From Microcyclospora pomicola (taxonomy: Eukaryota; Ascomycota; Dothideomycetes; Capnodiales), in contig NHNY01000001.1 in NCBI GenBank assembly GCA_002786065.1, positions 1,736,001 to 1,800,000 of the forward strand: a stretch of DNA of 64,000 bases, given 5' to 3'. Positions 6,564 through 49,191 of the stretch are shown piece after piece. A program made the translations under genes and the position numbers. Under the pieces are notes generated by a model that did not search any database, was not told the origin of the DNA, and saw only the letters and a program-made list of their open reading frames with translations. Each line of letters begins with the position of its first letter. Position 1 is the stretch's first letter.

Positions 6564-8851
6564 ATGGATCGATCACCTTCCAACTCAAACATGGATAGCT
6601 ACGATACACTGTACCGTCGGACCATTGAGCTGGAGGTCGAGGCTAAGTTCCACCGGGCGGAGAACATTCGCTTGAGGGACACGGTCGTCCACCTAGTCAA
6701 CTCGGCGAACGAAAGCAAGTCGACTCTGCCGTTTGCTGAAATCGGGCAGTTGCAGATTGAGCTGGCGACGGTCCGGGCAGAACTGGCTTCCTTGCGTTTC
6801 AACCAGGTCATTGGTCGGGGCGACAAGCGGGACAATGATGCAATCGAGTTGGGGATTCCAGCTGGGCGATCGAACAGAGAGGAACAAATGCTCAGTTGGG
6901 CTGCTAGTCCAGTCAACCCAAGGTGAGTCTCCCCGCAGTCTCGTGGCGCTCTTGTCGACTTCGAGTGACAGCTGATTGTGAAAGCAGCGGCCATCAGAGT
7001 GACTTTCCTGACGAGGGGTCTCGAGGTCCCCAGAAGATCGAGGAAGATCTACTAGGCTGGCGAGGCGAAGAATGCGAAGAGATGAAAGGTTGGTCACCTC
7101 CGTTGGATCTTACAGCGCAATCATCATCTAGAGATGCCGCACGCCCCATCGAACACTCCAGAGACGCGGGAAGAAAATCAGACAGCCTGGATCCACCGCT
7201 GCACAGGAGATTTGATCGACCTTTCCATGACCACGAGCGGCGGAAGATCACAGGGTTCGCTACCTGGATTGAAGACTGGACCGAGGATGAGGTAGACGCA
7301 GGCTGGAAAGACTTTGCCAATGTCAACCCATCCCGCTCCAGCATTGAGTGGAGGCAGTATTACGAGACTGTGGTTCGACCTCATCTGGTTGCGAAAGGCC
7401 AAATCCATAATGAGACCAGGACCGATGGCCATCTATTTACAAGCGATGAGGGCGATGACGGAGCCCCTGAAGAAAAGTCAGGTGAAGCAAAGGATTCCGA
7501 CGAGTCCAAATGGCCTCGAGACGCAACTTCAGTCACGTTGGCGAAGGTTCAAAAGCCCGAAGATGAATGCCTGATCACTATCGAGGCCTGTCCTGGAAGT
7601 GATGAGGTAAGGACCAAGAGGGGCTTGCCGGGAGAAGCGCTCGAAGCTTCAGAGGAGCAGGGCCTCACATGTTCGACAGTTTTCGATGAGAGTAAAGGAA
7701 GAATTGAGCTCACAGCCGAGTTCACGCCATATCCGGATTCTTTAGTCCGCCTTCACCACGCGGGTGACTCAAACACGGATGCCGAGCGTCTTGCAAGTCC
7801 CGCAGTCACAGGATGTGATGTCTCTAAACATCACGAAATTTCGAGTGGAAAGGTCTCGTCACAAACGTCAGAAAAGGAACTCGAATGTTCGGGACAACCT
7901 AGTGGCCCAAGAAGCCTTGACCTTGCAGACGAGGTCACGACCGAGATTGAAACGTCAGACTCGTCGATCAAGCGCAAGACTGATCGCGGAGACACTGATC
8001 AGTCTGCATCACGCAGCATCACTCAAGTTCCTGTGCCCGGGTCTGACCAGAACTCGCATCAAGTTCGAGGCCATATCGGGCCGACGACTCTCCCAGGTCT
8101 GCAGGATTCTAGATGGCGGCCTGATCGATCTAGTGGGAGCCGTGGAAGAAATGTAGCTCTGCGCCGCAACGTGTGGCCTGGTGAAGACCAGGACGTGCGA
8201 TTTAACCTGCAATGCTCCGACATTTCTCTCCAGCACACGGTTCTGATATCCAACCTGGAGCCAGGTACTGCCTTGCAATGGGTCCTGGAACGTGTCTATG
8301 GCGGTCCGATCGTTTCAGCAACATACATCGAGACATCAAAGCGGTTCCGCAACGTAGCTACAGATACGGTCATGGTAGTCTTCTTCGATGCTGCTCACGC
8401 TCGCGCTTACGTCGACTCTTGTGCCGAGAATGCGTCAAGCATCAAGGCTGCAATGGTGGAATCTCCGACCTTCAGCTGTGCACTCAAGAAGCGCCGTGCT
8501 CTCGGTTCAGCTCTGAACACTACAAAGAGAAGTCGAGTGCTGTGTCTATATCACCCTTTTGCGGCTATGACTCCACAGCAAGCTCTCTCGGATCTCCACA
8601 ACCTGGACCCGCATTTTGAAGAATCGGTCAACCAGCCCCTGAGGATGAAACAGAGCGAGAAGGGAGCAATATTCATCGAGTTTGCGTGTATTCAGAAGGC
8701 GCATAGGGCGAAAGAAGCCTTCGAAAGCCCGTACAGTACCCTTCATGGCTTCAGCAAAGGGTTTGGTGCAGATCCGTGTGACAGACCACTGCACAAAGTG
8801 AACCAGCCCATGGTCCACTCTCGTCGTACAGATCAAGGAGGGGCCAGTTGA
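6564..8851 (+). CDS. RRM-like hypothetical protein
   Basis: Two exons, 6564-6922 and 6988-8851, joined by a 65-bp GT-AG intron (donor GTGAGT, acceptor AAAGCAG) with matching phase, giving 740 residues. Residues ~12-100 form a predicted coiled coil (LYRRTIELEVEAKFHRAENI, later IGQLQIELATVRAELASLR). A long acidic, Ser-rich, probably disordered middle follows. Residues ~530-620 look like an RNA-recognition motif (HTVLISNLEPGTALQWVLER, then TVMVVFFDAAHARAYVD), and ~635-720 could be a second, weaker one (VLCLYHPFAAMTPQQALSDL, GAIFIEFACIQKAHRAKEAF). Paired RRMs suggest RNA binding, but the aromatic RNP residues are poorly kept, so this is tentative. I do not recognise the specific protein. Confidence 0.7.
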
Positions 8852-41953: not shown

Positions 41954-42596
41954 GGTCTGTTGGCTCCAGCTACTGATATGGCTCCAATGTATGTCGACCA
42001 ATTCCCGCGCGCGCGTGTTATCGAAGGCGACGAGTGCTACTATTACATGCGCGCCAAGCAGTATTGCAACGGGTTGGTGTTCCTTGGGATGGGATCTATC
42101 GGCTCCTCCGGAAGTGATGAAACCCGGCTGTTGCCAAGAATGCGCCGAGCTGGTGGCGGAGGATTGTACAGTGCAGATCGCAGAAGACGACGCAAGCGAA
42201 GCGAATAACACGATAACAATGATGAATGAAAGGGAGAATGCCGTGTGGGAAGAAGAGTAGGGGTGGTGGACACGAGGTAGTGTGCTTGCCACGGATTGCA
42301 CGCGATTGGCTGCAGTAGCGTGAGGTGAGCATGTCATAATAATCATCGCAGCAGGCTGACATCACCTCATGATACGGGACCCGGGACGCGAGTCTTGGCT
42401 ACAGCATGACCGCCGGCTGTGTGACACATCGCGAATCCATACAGCCTACAGGTAAATGATGTGAATACCTGCCTTGATGCACCTGGTGTTACTTTGATTC
42501 TGGCTTCGTAGCTTCTCCTGCGTATCCTATAGAAAGTCATTCCCGACGCTCCGCCGCTGTGAGTGATGTGATAGAGCTGCTATCACCGCAGAAGCG
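41954..42596. promoter_or_regulatory. divergent promoter of the membrane-protein and lipase genes
   Basis: A 643-bp region between two divergent ATGs. The minus-strand frame stays open across most of it. No specific element identified. Confidence 0.4.
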
Positions 42597-43775
42597 ATGC
42601 GCGTCGCACACTTCTTTCGCCCCGCCGTTCTTGGCTATCTAGGCGTTGTCGTCAGGGCCATCAGCGATCAGCAGCAACATCCGCTTGTGCCCTTCGCCGA
42701 TGGTCGAAACCTCTCCGTGGCCCTTTTCCAGGATCTAGAAGAACTGGCGCGCCTCGTCGACATCTCCTACTGTGTTGGAATCACCAGTCCAGGCATCAGC
42801 AAGCCTTTCCAATGCCTATCCCGTTGCTCTGAATTTCCCGGGTTGGAATTGGTCCGGACGTGGAACACCGGGCCTTTGCTATCCGACTCTTGCGGATATG
42901 TTGCCCTCGATCATGAACATGAGCGCCTGATCGTGGCTTTCCGAGGCACATACAGTATCGCGAACACGATAGTTGACTTGAGTACTGTGCCGCAAGAGTA
43001 TGCTCCCTATCCTGGCTCGGGTGGGGACGATGAGGATGAGGATGGTCAAGCTCATAAGCTGACGACGACTTTCGATGACCGTAAAGGGCCAAAATGCATG
43101 AATTGTACTGTTCATGCTGGGTTTCAAACTTCATGGCGCAATACTCGTGAGTGTATTCTCGCAGAACTGGAGGAGCAAGTTCGCCTTTATCCACGATACA
43201 AATTCCATCTGGTTGGCCACAGCCTGGGCGGAGCTGTTGCAGCGCTTGCCGGACTTGACTTTCAGGCTCGCGGATGGAATCCTACAATCACAACATTTGG
43301 TGAACCTCGCATCGGGAACAAGAATCTCGCGAGTTACCTGGATCAGAGGTTCGGACTCGTTGATCACTCCGACTCACGAACCGATGAGAACACGCTGCGC
43401 TATCGTAGAGTCACACACGTCGATGATCCGATACCTCTGCTGCCTCTTAGCGAGTGGGGGTTCGCCATGCATGCAGGCGAAATCCATATCTCCAAACCAT
43501 CGCTATCGCCAGAAATCTCAGATCTTCACCACTGCAAAGGTGACGGCGACCAAAGCTGTATTGCGGGTCAAGATCCTACAGTCACAGAGTCTCCTGAGGA
43601 TGGAGTTGCACCTCGCAAGAGGAATCTCTTGTCGTCAGTGGAGCACGAGGTGCACGACGTGATGCATGAACCATGGGGAATCCCGTCGAGGTATAAATTA
43701 TGGCAGCTGTTCTTTGCACATCGTGACTACTTTTGGAGACTTGGTCTTTGCGTTCCCGGTGGCGATCCTTTCTAG
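42597..43775 (+). CDS. secreted class-3 lipase
   Basis: Single exon, 392 residues. The N-terminus (MRVAHFFRPAVLGYLGVVVR) is a likely signal peptide. It is an alpha/beta hydrolase of the lipase-3 (Rhizomucor-type triacylglycerol lipase) family: the strand LIVAFRGTYSIANTIVDL (oxyanion region), the nucleophile elbow FHLVGHSLGGAVAALAGL (Ser209), the following strand ITTFGEPRIGNKNLA, the acid in THVDDPIPLLP (Asp276 or Asp277) and the base in FAMHAGEIHIS (His292). Cysteine pairs around residues 73-77 and 167-170 fit an extracellular protein. The C-terminal ~90 residues go past the usual domain end. It hydrolyses acylglycerols or related esters outside the cell; the exact substrate is not visible. 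Confidence 0.93.
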   Translation: MRVAHFFRPAVLGYLGVVVRAISDQQQHPLVPFADGRNLSVALFQDLEELARLVDISYCVGITSPGISKPFQCLSRCSEFPGLELVRTWNTGPLLSDSCGYVALDHEHERLIVAFRGTYSIANTIVDLSTVPQEYAPYPGSGGDDEDEDGQAHKLTTTFDDRKGPKCMNCTVHAGFQTSWRNTRECILAELEEQVRLYPRYKFHLVGHSLGGAVAALAGLDFQARGWNPTITTFGEPRIGNKNLASYLDQRFGLVDHSDSRTDENTLRYRRVTHVDDPIPLLPLSEWGFAMHAGEIHISKPSLSPEISDLHHCKGDGDQSCIAGQDPTVTESPEDGVAPRKRNLLSSVEHEVHDVMHEPWGIPSRYKLWQLFFAHRDYFWRLGLCVPGGDPF

Positions 43776-44208
43776 GCGGTGGGGACCGAAGTTGCCAGCA
43801 GCAAACCATAGCTAGTTGAGGGGTTCACGACGAGGAGACGACTTTCACGTACAATGCACGACATCTTACGATTATGAGACATGTTTTGTGACAAGTGCGG
43901 TGCATGTTGCCTTTCGTGTGTACTACACTCTCAGGCCAACGCTTTCCAACAAATCTTCAAACAGTGAGCGAGCGATACTACTATGCCTTTTAATAAGTGC
44001 CTAGGTTCCGGAGGAGAAGCACGCTCAATCTCGAATATTGAAGCACATGTACATGTTGTGAGTACATGAGATGGACCGAATACATGTGCGAGACAACCAG
44101 CACGTGACCCGCGAGCAGGTTGCAGCGGCTTGGGTCTTCTCCTCATCTTGCGTGCCATCTAACGAGCAAACCACCACGTAGTTCCCGTAACTTTGGCTCG
44201 CGTCCGTC
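43776..44208. other. intergenic region
   Basis: Lipase 3' region and promoter of the fusion gene that follows. Short ORFs only. Confidence 0.45.
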
Positions 44209-46678
44209 ATGAACAACCAGCAATGTTCGTACAGTGTCCCATATACCTCTTTGAACATATCACTCTGACCTTGAGCACTGCATAGTCCCACAATACCCAG
44301 CGCCACCGTATACTTTTGCACCGAACCCATATCCTGCGCAGCAAGCTCCATACCAGTTTCAAGCTCCGCCGCCGCAACAGCAGCATCAGCAACAGCAGCA
44401 GCAGCAACAACACCAACAACACCAACAGCTCATACAACCTCCACAACTCCGCCAGAATCAGCATCAGCATCAACCACCGCAATACCTCCATAACTTTAAC
44501 AACCCTGGTATCCCTCAGCCTCTACCTCCACCACCCTCACGGCGACCGGATACACAAGCATCCCAGACCAATCTTCCACAGGCGAGTACCTCTCGTCCTG
44601 TCCAAAAGAGACGAGGACCTACTCCACGAAGCCAAGCCAATCGTGACCGAACATCCAGAGACAATGCTGTTTCTCGGCGGCAATCGCCGGCTGGCGGGCC
44701 TGGTGCTCCCCCTCCGGAGTCCATCACCCCTGACAATATCGAGGAGGAACTCATGAACGCGCTCCAAGGAGACGGGTCAAACCGCGGCAATCAAGCTATC
44801 GAGGATGATAACGACGATGACGATCAAGATCAAGATGGAGAGATGGATGAAAACGAGCCCATATACAATCTGCCGCCTCCACCTGAAGGCAATTATGCCA
44901 ACGAGGAGGAACTGGAGCAGCAGATGCATGCCTGGTCACTGGGTCATGGTTACGAATGTGTCCGCAGAGCAAGCAAAAAGAACGCGCGTGGTACCGTCTA
45001 CAAACGCTATTATCACTGCAGCAGACATGGAAAGACAGCGCGTACCCCTAGAGTGGAGGATAGTATGCGCAAGCGTGCTAAGCGGAAGACTGGTCGGCTT
45101 GGTTGTCCGATGAGTCTTGCGGCAGTCGCTGTCGATCCAACCAATCCTAATGGCGAGTGGCAGATCCGTCATCGCAAGACTCACCATAATCATCCAGCAG
45201 AGGACGCTGTGACGCTCACAGGCCACCGCCGTAGGGCGAGGGGTGGCGACGTAGAACGGATCATCGACAGTCTATTCGGCATCGGGACACCCACTACACA
45301 GGTGCTCAAATTTCTGCAGAAGAATCACCCAAGTGGATTGTTCACAAGAACCGATGTAGCTAACATGAAGCTGAAGTTCAATAAGTATGGTACATGCGTC
45401 AAGGATGGTCTTCCCGTGCGGACTGTGACTGCTGGTAAAGGAGGAGTCCCTTCCGCTTGCCAGCGATGTCGTCAGAAACGGGTCAAATGTGACAGCGTAC
45501 GTCCCACTTGTGGGACCTGTCTGACTGAGGGAGCAGGATGCGAATATGATCACGAGCCGCAACCTTTTGTAACACCAGACAGTAACGATATGGACCAGTT
45601 CGGGCCGGATGTCAACGAAGCGTCGACTGCAGTGGTTCATCAGGAAGTGAATCAACCGGCACAGCGACGGCCACAGCATGCGCAGGCACGACCGACTCGT
45701 CAAGCAATGCGTTCTAACGAGGATGTCGAACGCGCGCAGCGTATCATGTCAGAGTTCCAGTCGTTTCAGGCTGATCACGTACGTCCGACACGACTTTCAC
45801 TCGAGAGCTCTGTTGTAGAACTGCTCGCCTCAAGCGCTTGTGGCAATGGCGATCTGTACAAGAACGTTCCGACCTTGATGTCAGCTACAGAGTGGCCGGC
45901 GTACAGCAGCATGATGGTAGAAGCGTCCATGAAGGAGAATACTTATGATGTGTTGGTTGGTGCGAAAAACGAACCAACTAATCCCGCCAGTGATTGCGAA
46001 GTCGAGACGTGGAATGAGTACATCAAACAGCTCGCCATTTACAAGCGCCGCAATGATATGCTACTTGCTTCAATCTGGGGTAGTCTGGCGCCGGCGTTCA
46101 AGACACGCGTTGCCAAATGCAAAAGTGCAGCTCAAGCATGGAATCTGGTCGAGGATATGTGCCAGCCTCATGGTAGCGATCAAGCTTTCAGGATGTTCTC
46201 CGAGCTGCAGGGCATCACTTTACAAACCAGCCGTGACCTCAGTGACTATATCCAACGAATCGAACAAGCTTACAGGGATCTAGTACGTGTGAAGATGTAT
46301 CAGCACCAGGCACAGGATTCGATGGGATTCTCATCGAACATCGCCACAAATCCGCGTCAATCCGTGAACGGAAACTTCTCCATTTCCACCATTACTTCTG
46401 GCAGTTCGACTACCAAAAGGAATGCCCGCTTGCTGGCTGATCCGTTCGACGTTTTCCCGGAAGAAAGCCTGTGCTTTCTCTTCTTGACCAATCTGGGACC
46501 ATCCTTCAGACCCTGGGCTGAAACAGTCTGCGCAACAAACAACGTAGGAGGCTTCGGGACCGGTATCAAGGTTGGATTCAAAGATCTCAGTCGGAGGGTG
46601 GTTGAATGGGAGTCCAGCAGACGTCGAGCAAATGCTAGCGGTGTCGATGCAAATAATGGTTATGCCAGAGTTCAATGA
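44209..46678 (+). CDS. FAR1-type + Zn2Cys6 + gag-like fusion protein, probable DNA-binding regulator
   Basis: Two exons: 44209-44224 (16 nt, MNNQQ) and 44286-46678, with a 61-bp intron (GTTCGT, CTGAC branch site, TAG); 802 residues. Without that intron the frame has no ATG before 44753 although coding-like sequence reaches back to 44286. Order: Gln/Pro-rich disordered N-terminus with poly-Gln; acidic patch; FAR1/WRKY-GCM1-like zinc fold (Cys230, Cys250, a GRLGCP turn, His306 and His308 in THHNHP); Zn2Cys6 cluster CQRCRQKRVKC plus CGTCLTEGAGC (residues 397-424, correct spacing); a linker; then ~534-786 resembling the copia-type gag (UBN2) domain (SAAQAWNLVEDM, SDYIQRIEQAYRDL, FLFLTNLGPSFRPW). 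No protease, integrase or reverse transcriptase lies nearby and no terminal repeats were seen, so this looks like a host gene that absorbed transposon-derived domains. Regulatory role inferred. Confidence 0.85.
44375..44428 (+). repeat. CAG/CAA tract (poly-Gln/His)
   Basis: Imperfect CAG, CAA and CAC/CAT codons encode a Gln/His run near the N-terminus of the fusion regulator, typical of activation or assembly regions; length variation between strains is likely. Confidence 0.9.
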
Positions 46679-47036
46679 ATTTCGTCATGGCGAAGGCTTG
46701 AATCGCCACAGCCGGAAATTTTTTATCATTCCTGCCTCATGTTCCTCACCACAAAATTGCGTAGTTTGAGAGACGATACACATACGTGAGATATATGGAT
46801 GTGTATATGTGTTTGCAGTATGCATGTGTAAGCTCAGATCAAGAGGTCTCACGTGACGTGTCAACAAAAGCGTTCCGATTGGCTGGCTGCCGTCTAGCTT
46901 TTGGGTGCTCCTTCTCGGGATCGAAGACATCACCAAACATCTTCATCTTCACACGCGCCGTCCGCAAGACAACCACAACACCTGCCATCAATTGCTGCTG
47001 CCTCAAGCGCTGAGGCACGCCGATTGATCCTCCACG
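46679..47036. promoter_or_regulatory. cytochrome c1 promoter with CCAAT and CACGTG boxes
   Basis: A CCAAT box on the minus strand (ATTGG, 46878-46882) lies 155 bp before the CYT1 ATG, as expected for a HAP-complex-controlled respiratory gene. A CACGTGACGTG word sits about 25 bp further upstream. Motif reading only. Confidence 0.5.
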
Positions 47037-48279
47037 ATGCTCAGCCGTGCGAGTCTGCGAGCCACCCGCGCTCTGGCCTCGGCGAAGAGCGCGGCTCCGA
47101 AGACTGCCAAGGTATGTTGAGATACACCGGGTGTGTTGGGCGTGGGAGGAAAAAGGCGTTAAACATGTCGGATATGAGCTTCGAGGTGTAATGAAGGGTT
47201 GTGAGTGATATGGAGGCTGACGGGCATGTTTCCACAGCGCAATGCTTCTTCCCAAAGCTCTTCCGAGGGCGCAGCCTGGACAAACACTGCTCTCCTCGGC
47301 TCCTCTTCTGCCCTCGCCGTTGGATCAGTCGCATGGTACTACCATCAGTTCGGCCGACCGGCTCAGGCTATGACGCCTGCTGAGGAAGGGTAAGCATATT
47401 CCAGTCTCTGACCTTGGTGCCAAGCTTCGACCGGGAGACATCTGACATGTTCTCTCCACAGTCTCCACGCCACCAAATACCCTTGGGAACACTCGAAGCT
47501 ACACAAGACCTTCGACCATGGCGCGCTTCGCCGTGGCTTCCAAGTCTACCGTGAGGTCTGCGCTGCTTGCCACTCGCTCAGCCGTATCCCATACCGCAAC
47601 GCAGTCGGTAACTTCATGACGGTCGATGAGGCTAAGGCCCTGGCCGAAGAGAACGAGTACGACACTGAGCCGAATGACGAGGGCGAGATTGAGAAGCGTC
47701 CAGGCAAGCTCTCTGACTACCTTCCGTCTCCCTACAAGAACGACGAGGCTGCACGTGCCGCGAACAACGGTGCGTTGCCTCCGGATCTTTCGCTCATGGT
47801 CAAGGCTCGCCACGGCGGTTGCGATTACATCTTCTCGCTATTGACTGGATACCCCGAGGAGCCGCCAGCAGGTGCTGTCGTGCAGGAGGGACTGAACTTC
47901 AACCCCTACTTCCCTGGTACCGGTATTGCCATGGCTCGTGTGCTTTTCGATGGCCTTGTCGAGTACGACGATGGAACCCCAGCCACGACTTCGCAAATGG
48001 CCAAGGATGTTGTCGAGTTCTTGAATTGGACTGCTGAGCCTGAGATGGACGACCGCAAGCGCATGGGCTGGAAGGTCATGGCTGTCGGAAGTGTGCTTTT
48101 CGCCATCAGCGTATGGGTCAAGAGGTATGTCACAAACTTCACGCTGGCCAATGTAGATCACAGTCTTGACTAACAACTCTACCAACAGATACAAGTGGTC
48201 CAACATCAAGACTCGCCGTCTCTTATACAACCCACCCGTCGCCGACAAACGCACCCCTGCTCAGGTTCACCGAAGATAG
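47037..48279 (+). CDS. CYT1: cytochrome c1, complex III heme protein
   Basis: Four exons: 47037-47111, 47238-47389, 47462-48124 and 48189-48279, all phases matching, 326 residues. It carries electrons from the Rieske protein to cytochrome c in the mitochondrial bc1 complex. The N-terminus (MLSRASLRATRALASAKSAA) is a mitochondrial presequence, followed by a hydrophobic sorting stretch (TALLGSSSALAVGSVAWYY). The covalent heme site is VCAACHS (Cys109, Cys112, His113); the Met ligand is in TGIAMARVLFDG. Other landmarks are KYPWEHSKLHKTFDHGALRR, ARHGGCDYIFSLLTGY and GLNFNPYFPG. The C-terminal anchor WKVMAVGSVLFAISVWVKR ends in exon 3, and the matrix tail KWSNIKTRRLLYNPP in exon 4. Confidence 0.97.
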
Positions 48280-49191
48280 ACTGCAGGACATGAAAAGAAG
48301 CATGAGGCGCTGGTAAGAAAGTGGGGATAAAGAGATGCGAGAAAAGGTTTTTGAAACGCCGATTCGGCATTGTATAGCGGCGGCAGTAGCAAGTCCTCCT
48401 TTGCGTTGTGTCTTGTTACTATTATCTCCACAGCGCAGCCGGCTCTTGTGGGAATATGCGCATCATATATTTTCCTCGTGTATCAAAGATCAGTGTTCTA
48501 CCACATGTTTGATCGTGCTGACTCGCTTCATAGCTCCATCAAGCGTGTGCGGTCCGAGCATTATCAAAAATTGTTGCATGACTTCTTGTGCCCCAAGCAA
48601 TTATACCTTAAGGTAGGTAAGGTAGAGACCTATCTCCCCGTAGCGTCCTTGCACGATTCTCTATACTTTCTGTATAAGGTCCGGGTGCTGCAAGTAGCGA
48701 GGTTGTAAAGAGTCACTACAGCACAACCTTCTTGTAACGGTAAAGGCTATAATGATGACCTTGCCGTAGTGACGGGATGGATTGCTCATCTCCCGATCGA
48801 TCATACCGCAAAATATCACGGATTCCTCGCTATGGTACCTCAGCTACGTAACGATCATTATCACTGCTACACCAAAGGATCGCTATAGTCGAAGTCGGAA
48901 CGTCCTCAAAGTAGCAGTACTAAGCCTGATTGGGGGTTGTGTATGCTGGCTTGAAAGCCGCCTGTCCCGCCCTTGACTTCATCCTTCCCGAGGCGGTCGT
49001 TATAGCGAGGCTGTGCTGATAGTAGGAATGTACATCAACATAGCCCAGCCGCTCCATACGTCATCTGAAATATGACGTGGATCGTCATTGGGGACATGTT
49101 AAGATATAGCGAGCGTGCTTTCCTTTTACCTACAACCTCTGCATAAACACGCTACAGTACTTTCGCGTCGATTACCTTTTCTAGCGACAAC
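48280..49191. other. intergenic region
   Basis: CYT1 3' region and promoter of the small membrane-protein gene. An AAGGTAGGTAAGGTAG repeat lies at ~48609-48624. ORFs at 48335-48708 show no motif. Confidence 0.45.

Follow-up and report, generated by a model that had tools for sequence, protein, structure and literature searches.

A conserved fungal host gene that joins a FAR1-type zinc fold, a Zn2Cys6 cluster and a predicted copia-type capsid fold

We analyzed a 64,000-nucleotide stretch of the genome (23.4 Mb) of the fungus Microcyclospora pomicola (contig NHNY01000001.1, positions 1,736,001 to 1,800,000; hereafter the window) and focused on one gene, which lies between a class 3 lipase gene upstream and a cytochrome c1 gene downstream. 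An uninterrupted open frame of 807 codons (44255–46678, + strand) and a predicted intron together reproduce the 802-residue product with a 16-nt first exon that an earlier note on this DNA had put forward. We are nearly certain that this is a host gene and that its product combines a FAR1-type zinc fold, a Zn2Cys6 cluster and a copia-type capsid (CA) fold. Its features, with confidence in the predicted model given as the predicted local distance difference test (pLDDT), are as follows.

44209–44224, + strand: exon 1, 16 nt, encoding MNNQQ and the first base of codon 6
44225–44285, + strand: intron of 61 bases, predicted from sequence (GTTCGT...CTGAC...TAG, with CTGAC as the branch site)
44286–46678, + strand: exon 2, the remainder of the 802-residue product including the stop codon
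44286–44800, + strand: Gln/Pro-rich N-terminal region, predicted to be disordered (38 Q and 33 P in residues 6–195; pLDDT mostly below 50) and less conserved
44801–44857, + strand: acidic stretch EDDNDDDDQDQDGEMDENE
44876–45199, + strand: FAR1 or WRKY-GCM1 zinc fold, with a Pfam FAR1 match at 44933–45196
45215–45418, + strand: three-helix stretch after FAR1 (GHRRRAR...RTDVANMK), a candidate paired-type helix-turn-helix
45455–45556, + strand: Zn2Cys6 binuclear cluster, Cys 397–424 in protein numbering, from Pfam, Foldseek and alignment
45851–46633, + strand: copia-type capsid fold with N- and C-terminal domains in the predicted model, with a Pfam Retrotran_gag_2 match at 45929–46291
46331–46435, + strand: disordered insertion within the capsid C-terminal domain, a poorly conserved loop of low pLDDT
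46538–46579, + strand: Gly-rich hairpin NNVGGFGTGIKVGF, conserved, with short strands in the model

Residue numbers in the Pfam and fold outputs follow the 807-codon frame, and protein numbers are 5 lower. The spliced product is predicted to begin with MNNQQFPQYPAPPY, and the small first exon appears to be supported because many homologues begin alike (MNQQ...YP). Three protein searches returned 90, 97 and 89 matches, 105 distinct proteins in all, and revealed a conserved family. The first and third searches scored only the 8000 candidates with the most shared words, and all rely on shared 5-residue words, so that more distant relatives may escape. We aligned the window protein with 87 homologues (88 rows); three joined gene models (P0002, P0041 and P0044) were kept out of the alignment, as were homologues that came up for the first time in the second or third search.

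In the window protein, FAR1, Zn_clus and Retrotran_gag_2 all scored above their Pfam cut-offs. The FAR1 match reached 31.8 bits against a cut-off of 28.1 (E 2.4e-7), the profile matched 36 of 37 family members at E ≤0.01, and the predicted fold of this part resembles an Aft2-DNA structure. The earlier note had named Cys230, Cys250, His306 and His308 as zinc ligands; the last three are conserved, but position 230 is a Cys in only 3 of the 88 rows (the window, P0001 and P0003), and the fourth conserved ligand is Cys279. Cys250, Cys279, His306 and His308 occur together in 84/88 rows. Pfam gave no match to the catalytic core of Mutator-like elements (MULE, PF10551) in the protein at E ≤10. The Zn_clus match was stronger (37.7 versus 21 bits, E 2.2e-9), with a Foldseek probability of 1.00 to GAL4, HAP1 and LAC9; the cluster sits exactly at residues 397–424, where it had been placed before, and all six Cys are kept in 87/88 rows. 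Nor did Pfam report a Fungal_trans middle homology region at E ≤10; some other zinc-cluster proteins also lack it. All ten zinc ligands are kept in 83 of the 88 rows, the window included. The five exceptions are probably partial gene models, because four of them are short (P0085, P0086, P0087 and P0089, 467–515 residues) and P0090 retains only 53 of 182 FAR1-region residues. Upstream of both domains, at least 12 Asp or Glu residues were found within the 45 residues preceding PPPPE in 52 of the 65 proteins, among the 105 from the searches, in which this could be tested.

The mean share of the majority residue was highest in FAR1 (0.79) and the helical stretch that follows it (0.78), intermediate in the C-terminal tail (0.64), the capsid match (0.61) and the zinc cluster (0.58), and lower in the N-terminal region (0.48) and in the linkers and capsid loop (0.26–0.36). 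This pattern, taken from aligned sequences, fits purifying selection on every domain.

The gag-like region that the earlier note had placed at about residues 534–786 was matched in the predicted model by a capsid fold at frame residues 533–793 (protein 528–788). The Copia capsid aligned to the model over 184/184 of its residues at ~9% identity, with both CA domains present, and all 88 aligned rows span the region. At the profile level, 16 of 37 whole family members matched Retrotran_gag_2 at E ≤0.01, and C-terminal pieces scanned alone did so in 14 of 15 cases at E ≤1, the best at 2.5e-11; E values of single pieces ran from 2.5e-11 (Vermiconidia) to 0.13 (Fulvia). Some results weigh against the gag match. 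The Retrotran_gag_2 score of the window protein is marginal (27.4 versus a cut-off of 27.0 bits, E 2.8e-6), precomputed Pfam lists give gag for just 16 of the 90 homologues from the first search, and in whole-protein scans of P0092 and P0095 no gag hit reached E ≤1. Self-assembly through the capsid part would draw on a fold that is predicted here, but the protein lacks the zinc knuckle that Copia Gag has: no CCHC pattern was found in the window protein, and the single CCHC-like match among the 105 proteins lies close to an N-terminus.

The marginal score, together with database models that do fuse neighbouring genes (P0002 with the lipase, and P0099), might suggest that the architecture is an annotation artefact, either of random domain matches or of neighbours fused by the gene model. 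We regard this as extremely improbable, given that the window frame is single and uninterrupted, that the ten zinc ligands and the capsid region recur together in 83/88 aligned rows, and that both the capsid and the zinc parts are also supported at the fold level.

In favour of a piece of a living transposable element instead of a host gene, domains of the FAR1 and gag types occur widely in MULE and copia elements. A search of the genome returned a single locus for the FAR1 family and two for gag, namely the studied gene and one relic with a stop; the other four matches to the whole protein span only the zinc-cluster stretch. A genome search for RVT_2, run without a positive control, gave no match, and one for the MULE core turned up a single copy interrupted by four stops. 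The gag relic (L007, G000:C16:117207–117605) is of copia type and carries one in-frame TGA, and the MULE relic (L009, G000:C58:423590–423859) is a transposase core with four TAG stops. The locus was also free of flanking repeats of at least 16 bases within 42000–48500, which, with the lipase and cytochrome c1 neighbours, bears out the earlier note's statement that neither terminal repeats nor pol genes flank the gene. The joined model P0002, the nearest relative, contains a lipase directly upstream, as in the window (69% identity over 403 residues). Taken with the single FAR1 locus, the stops in the relics and the lack of flanking repeats, this shared neighbour leaves a living element very hard to credit. 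In a second joined model, P0099 from Elasticomyces, the family gene adjoins a homologue of the window open frame 6908–8851 (26% identity over 208 residues and 39% over 62), which hints that linkage was kept while the order was shuffled. The tails of 2 of 6 joined models (P0002 and P0099) matched the window, and the place of the gene was judged from joined models only. The open frame itself (6908–8851, + strand) encodes 647 residues without a Pfam match and lies ~35 kb from the studied gene.

Carriers of the family include Polychaeton (Capnodiales), Cladosporium (Cladosporiales), Neophaeotheca (Neophaeothecales) and Peltaster (order unplaced), and further Teratosphaeria, Cercospora, Fulvia, Zasmidium, Ramularia and Hortaea. 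In quick trees, the FAR1 part (33 rows) and the capsid part (31 rows) have their main groups in common: the window with P0001 and P0003, Cercospora-Fulvia-Zasmidium, and Cladosporium with Oleoguttula 5521. Weak inner branches were left open (14 of 30 in the FAR1 tree and 11 of 28 in the capsid tree), and Hortaea and some others were placed differently. P0001 and P0002 are filed under Quercus suber (cork oak), probably because a relative of Microcyclospora pomicola contaminated that genome. P0092, filed under Anthostomella pinea (Sordariomycetes), groups with Teratosphaeria-like fungi in both trees, which would reflect a mislabelled genome, contamination or transfer. Hortaea werneckii and Teratosphaeriaceae sp. 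CCFEE 6253 each have two distinct proteins (pairs P0095/P0096 and P0080/P0088), and the gene was perhaps duplicated in some lineages.

The earlier note had derived the gene from pieces of two transposon classes plus a fungal zinc cluster. A host gene with a FAR1-type part, a zinc cluster and a copia capsid is indeed what we find, but its FAR1 part need not have come straight from a transposon. Beyond the family, the third search brought in three proteins, P0103, P0104 and P0105. P0103 is a 364-residue protein of Aureobasidium subglaciale (Dothideales), for which no Pfam match of its own to FAR1, zinc cluster or gag was found at E up to 1. Compared with the family by hhalign, P0103 aligned no further than the FAR1 and helical part (probability 99.3, E 7.9e-21), and it bears C, C and HNH at the places of the FAR1 ligands. 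Because the alignment is confined to this part, the FAR1 part probably belonged to a host FAR1-type protein before the zinc cluster and the capsid joined it. The weaker P0104 has a FAR1 match below the cut-off (22.9 bits, E 1.4e-4), and zinc cluster and gag matches were not found in it. The order of assembly rests on P0103 and, less firmly, on P0104; the simplest history that these sequences suggest is that an older FAR1-type protein gained the zinc cluster and the capsid before the carrier orders split. P0104 is filed under the bacterium Terriglobus roseus (a metagenome-assembled genome) though it looks fungus-like, probably owing to contamination. P0105 is a zinc-cluster protein according to its listed domains.

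Starting from what was computed, namely the three domains, their conservation, a predicted two-domain capsid fold and the lack of both flanking repeats and a CCHC knuckle, we propose that this domesticated host gene encodes a DNA-binding regulator that acts in the nucleus. Activation would fall to the disordered N-terminus, which is rich in Gln and Pro and acidic; two or three modules, namely the FAR1 fold, the candidate helix-turn-helix that follows and the Zn2Cys6 cluster, would recognize composite DNA sites; and the C-terminal capsid fold would join several copies into dimers or small ring-like oligomers. Oligomerization may then raise the affinity for clustered sites, as is thought for SCAN domains in vertebrate zinc-finger proteins. 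As a whole, this mechanism seems to us rather probable. A bolder version, in which the protein forms capsid-like lattices or closed shells on DNA in the nucleus and a particle of many DNA-binding units gathers or packages defined loci, is a long shot; we know of no description of gene regulation by DNA-bound capsid-type particles.

Self-association might instead have been lost, with the capsid fold serving only as a scaffold or partner-binding surface of a regulator that is monomeric or paired through its Zn2Cys6 cluster. A stretch of the form SSxVExLAxSSCGNGDSYK (45800–45865), strongly conserved directly before the capsid fold, may contribute to a new interface, and the GGFGTG hairpin (46538–46579), inside the capsid C-terminal domain, is almost invariant in the family. 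These family-specific features beside and within the capsid part suggest a separate binding site, and the disordered insertion in the C-terminal domain also favours a scaffold. However, the model contains both capsid domains with every Copia residue aligned, and the SCAN domain, also of CA fold, dimerizes; we therefore consider a mere scaffold unlikely, though worth keeping in view.

The predicted capsid fold would also be in keeping with defence against copia elements: the capsid part would enter copia particles or poison them, and the DNA-binding parts would either play a secondary role or silence the promoters of the elements. Ty1 p22 and mouse Fv1 join or poison particles in this manner. 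Beyond the studied gene, the genome search gave one gag relic and, without a positive control, no RVT_2 match. For Ty1, the cited part of one study describes control of copy number by a Gag-derived restriction factor (PMC7055915). Against this, 83/88 rows retain the ten zinc ligands of both DNA-binding domains, so that DNA binding is probably no less important than defence; the capsid part is well conserved, unlike an arms-race protein; and the piece of the resident gag relic before its stop did not match the capsid part (hhalign E 0.18). Defence accordingly strikes us as an unlikely explanation, and we retain a DNA-binding regulator as the preferred one.

Among known systems, plant FAR1/FHY3 (FRS) transcription factors, described as derived from transposases in the text cited (PMC6000157), likewise hold a FAR1-type C..C..HxH zinc fold within a host protein. 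The fungal protein differs from them in being fused to Zn2Cys6 and a capsid and in having no Pfam MULE core match. The yeast regulators Aft1 and Aft2 have a WRKY-GCM1 fold and, to our knowledge, neither a Zn2Cys6 cluster nor a capsid part. With GAL4, HAP1 and LAC9 the protein shares a correctly spaced six-Cys cluster (Foldseek probability 1.00, as above); unlike fungal Zn2Cys6 regulators, it shows no Fungal_trans Pfam match and carries the cluster in mid-protein, between FAR1 and the capsid.

Fungal fusions of host genes with transposable elements and co-opted gag genes are alike in that transposon domains have been joined to host domains and long retained. Wang and Han 2021 reportedly counted 14 events of gag co-option, of which three concerned fungi and four copia-type gag, and the gag part described here could already be among those genes, which is the main doubt on novelty. 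The earlier note's statement that no gene with this combination had been described stands among the matches listed from the open-licence PMC literature, where FAR1, Zn2Cys6 and capsid together were not described, but it is open to this doubt for gag. In a kingdom-wide screen of such fungal fusions, the main text makes no mention of FAR1 or Zn_clus, cites a Bel-Pao gag-PEX14 fusion and counts gag-polyprotein protease domains (Oggenfuss 2024, PMC10799480).

Compared with the capsid of Drosophila Copia Gag (8vvw, 8s41), the fungal capsid, a fold known from a model, has ~9% identity, a disordered insertion in its C-terminal domain and no CCHC nucleocapsid (NC), and it sits behind DNA-binding domains; Ty1 itself is without NC, according to the section cited of a Ty3 capsid paper (PMC6525542).

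The closest parallel is offered by the SCAN factors, in which a DNA-binding protein is likewise fused to a retroelement-capsid-like, likely capsid-derived domain that serves dimerization; in the passages cited, homology links the SCAN dimer to the C-terminal domain of the retroviral capsid (PMC3720700), and CA is termed a double-SCAN fold (PMC6525542). The fungal gene differs in having a copia-type capsid with both domains, and FAR1 and Zn2Cys6 in place of C2H2 fingers, and we draw the parallel as one of working alike, with oligomerization proposed here, and not of membership. Overall, the gene points to a conserved, unstudied regulator across a large fungal group, whose stepwise assembly from a FAR1-type protein and a later zinc cluster and capsid can be traced. 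It would be a fungal counterpart of SCAN, with a capsid from a different retrotransposon superfamily kept with both domains in a DNA-binding protein, and, if oligomerization proves true, capsid folds would be a repeatedly recruited oligomerization part of transcription factors.
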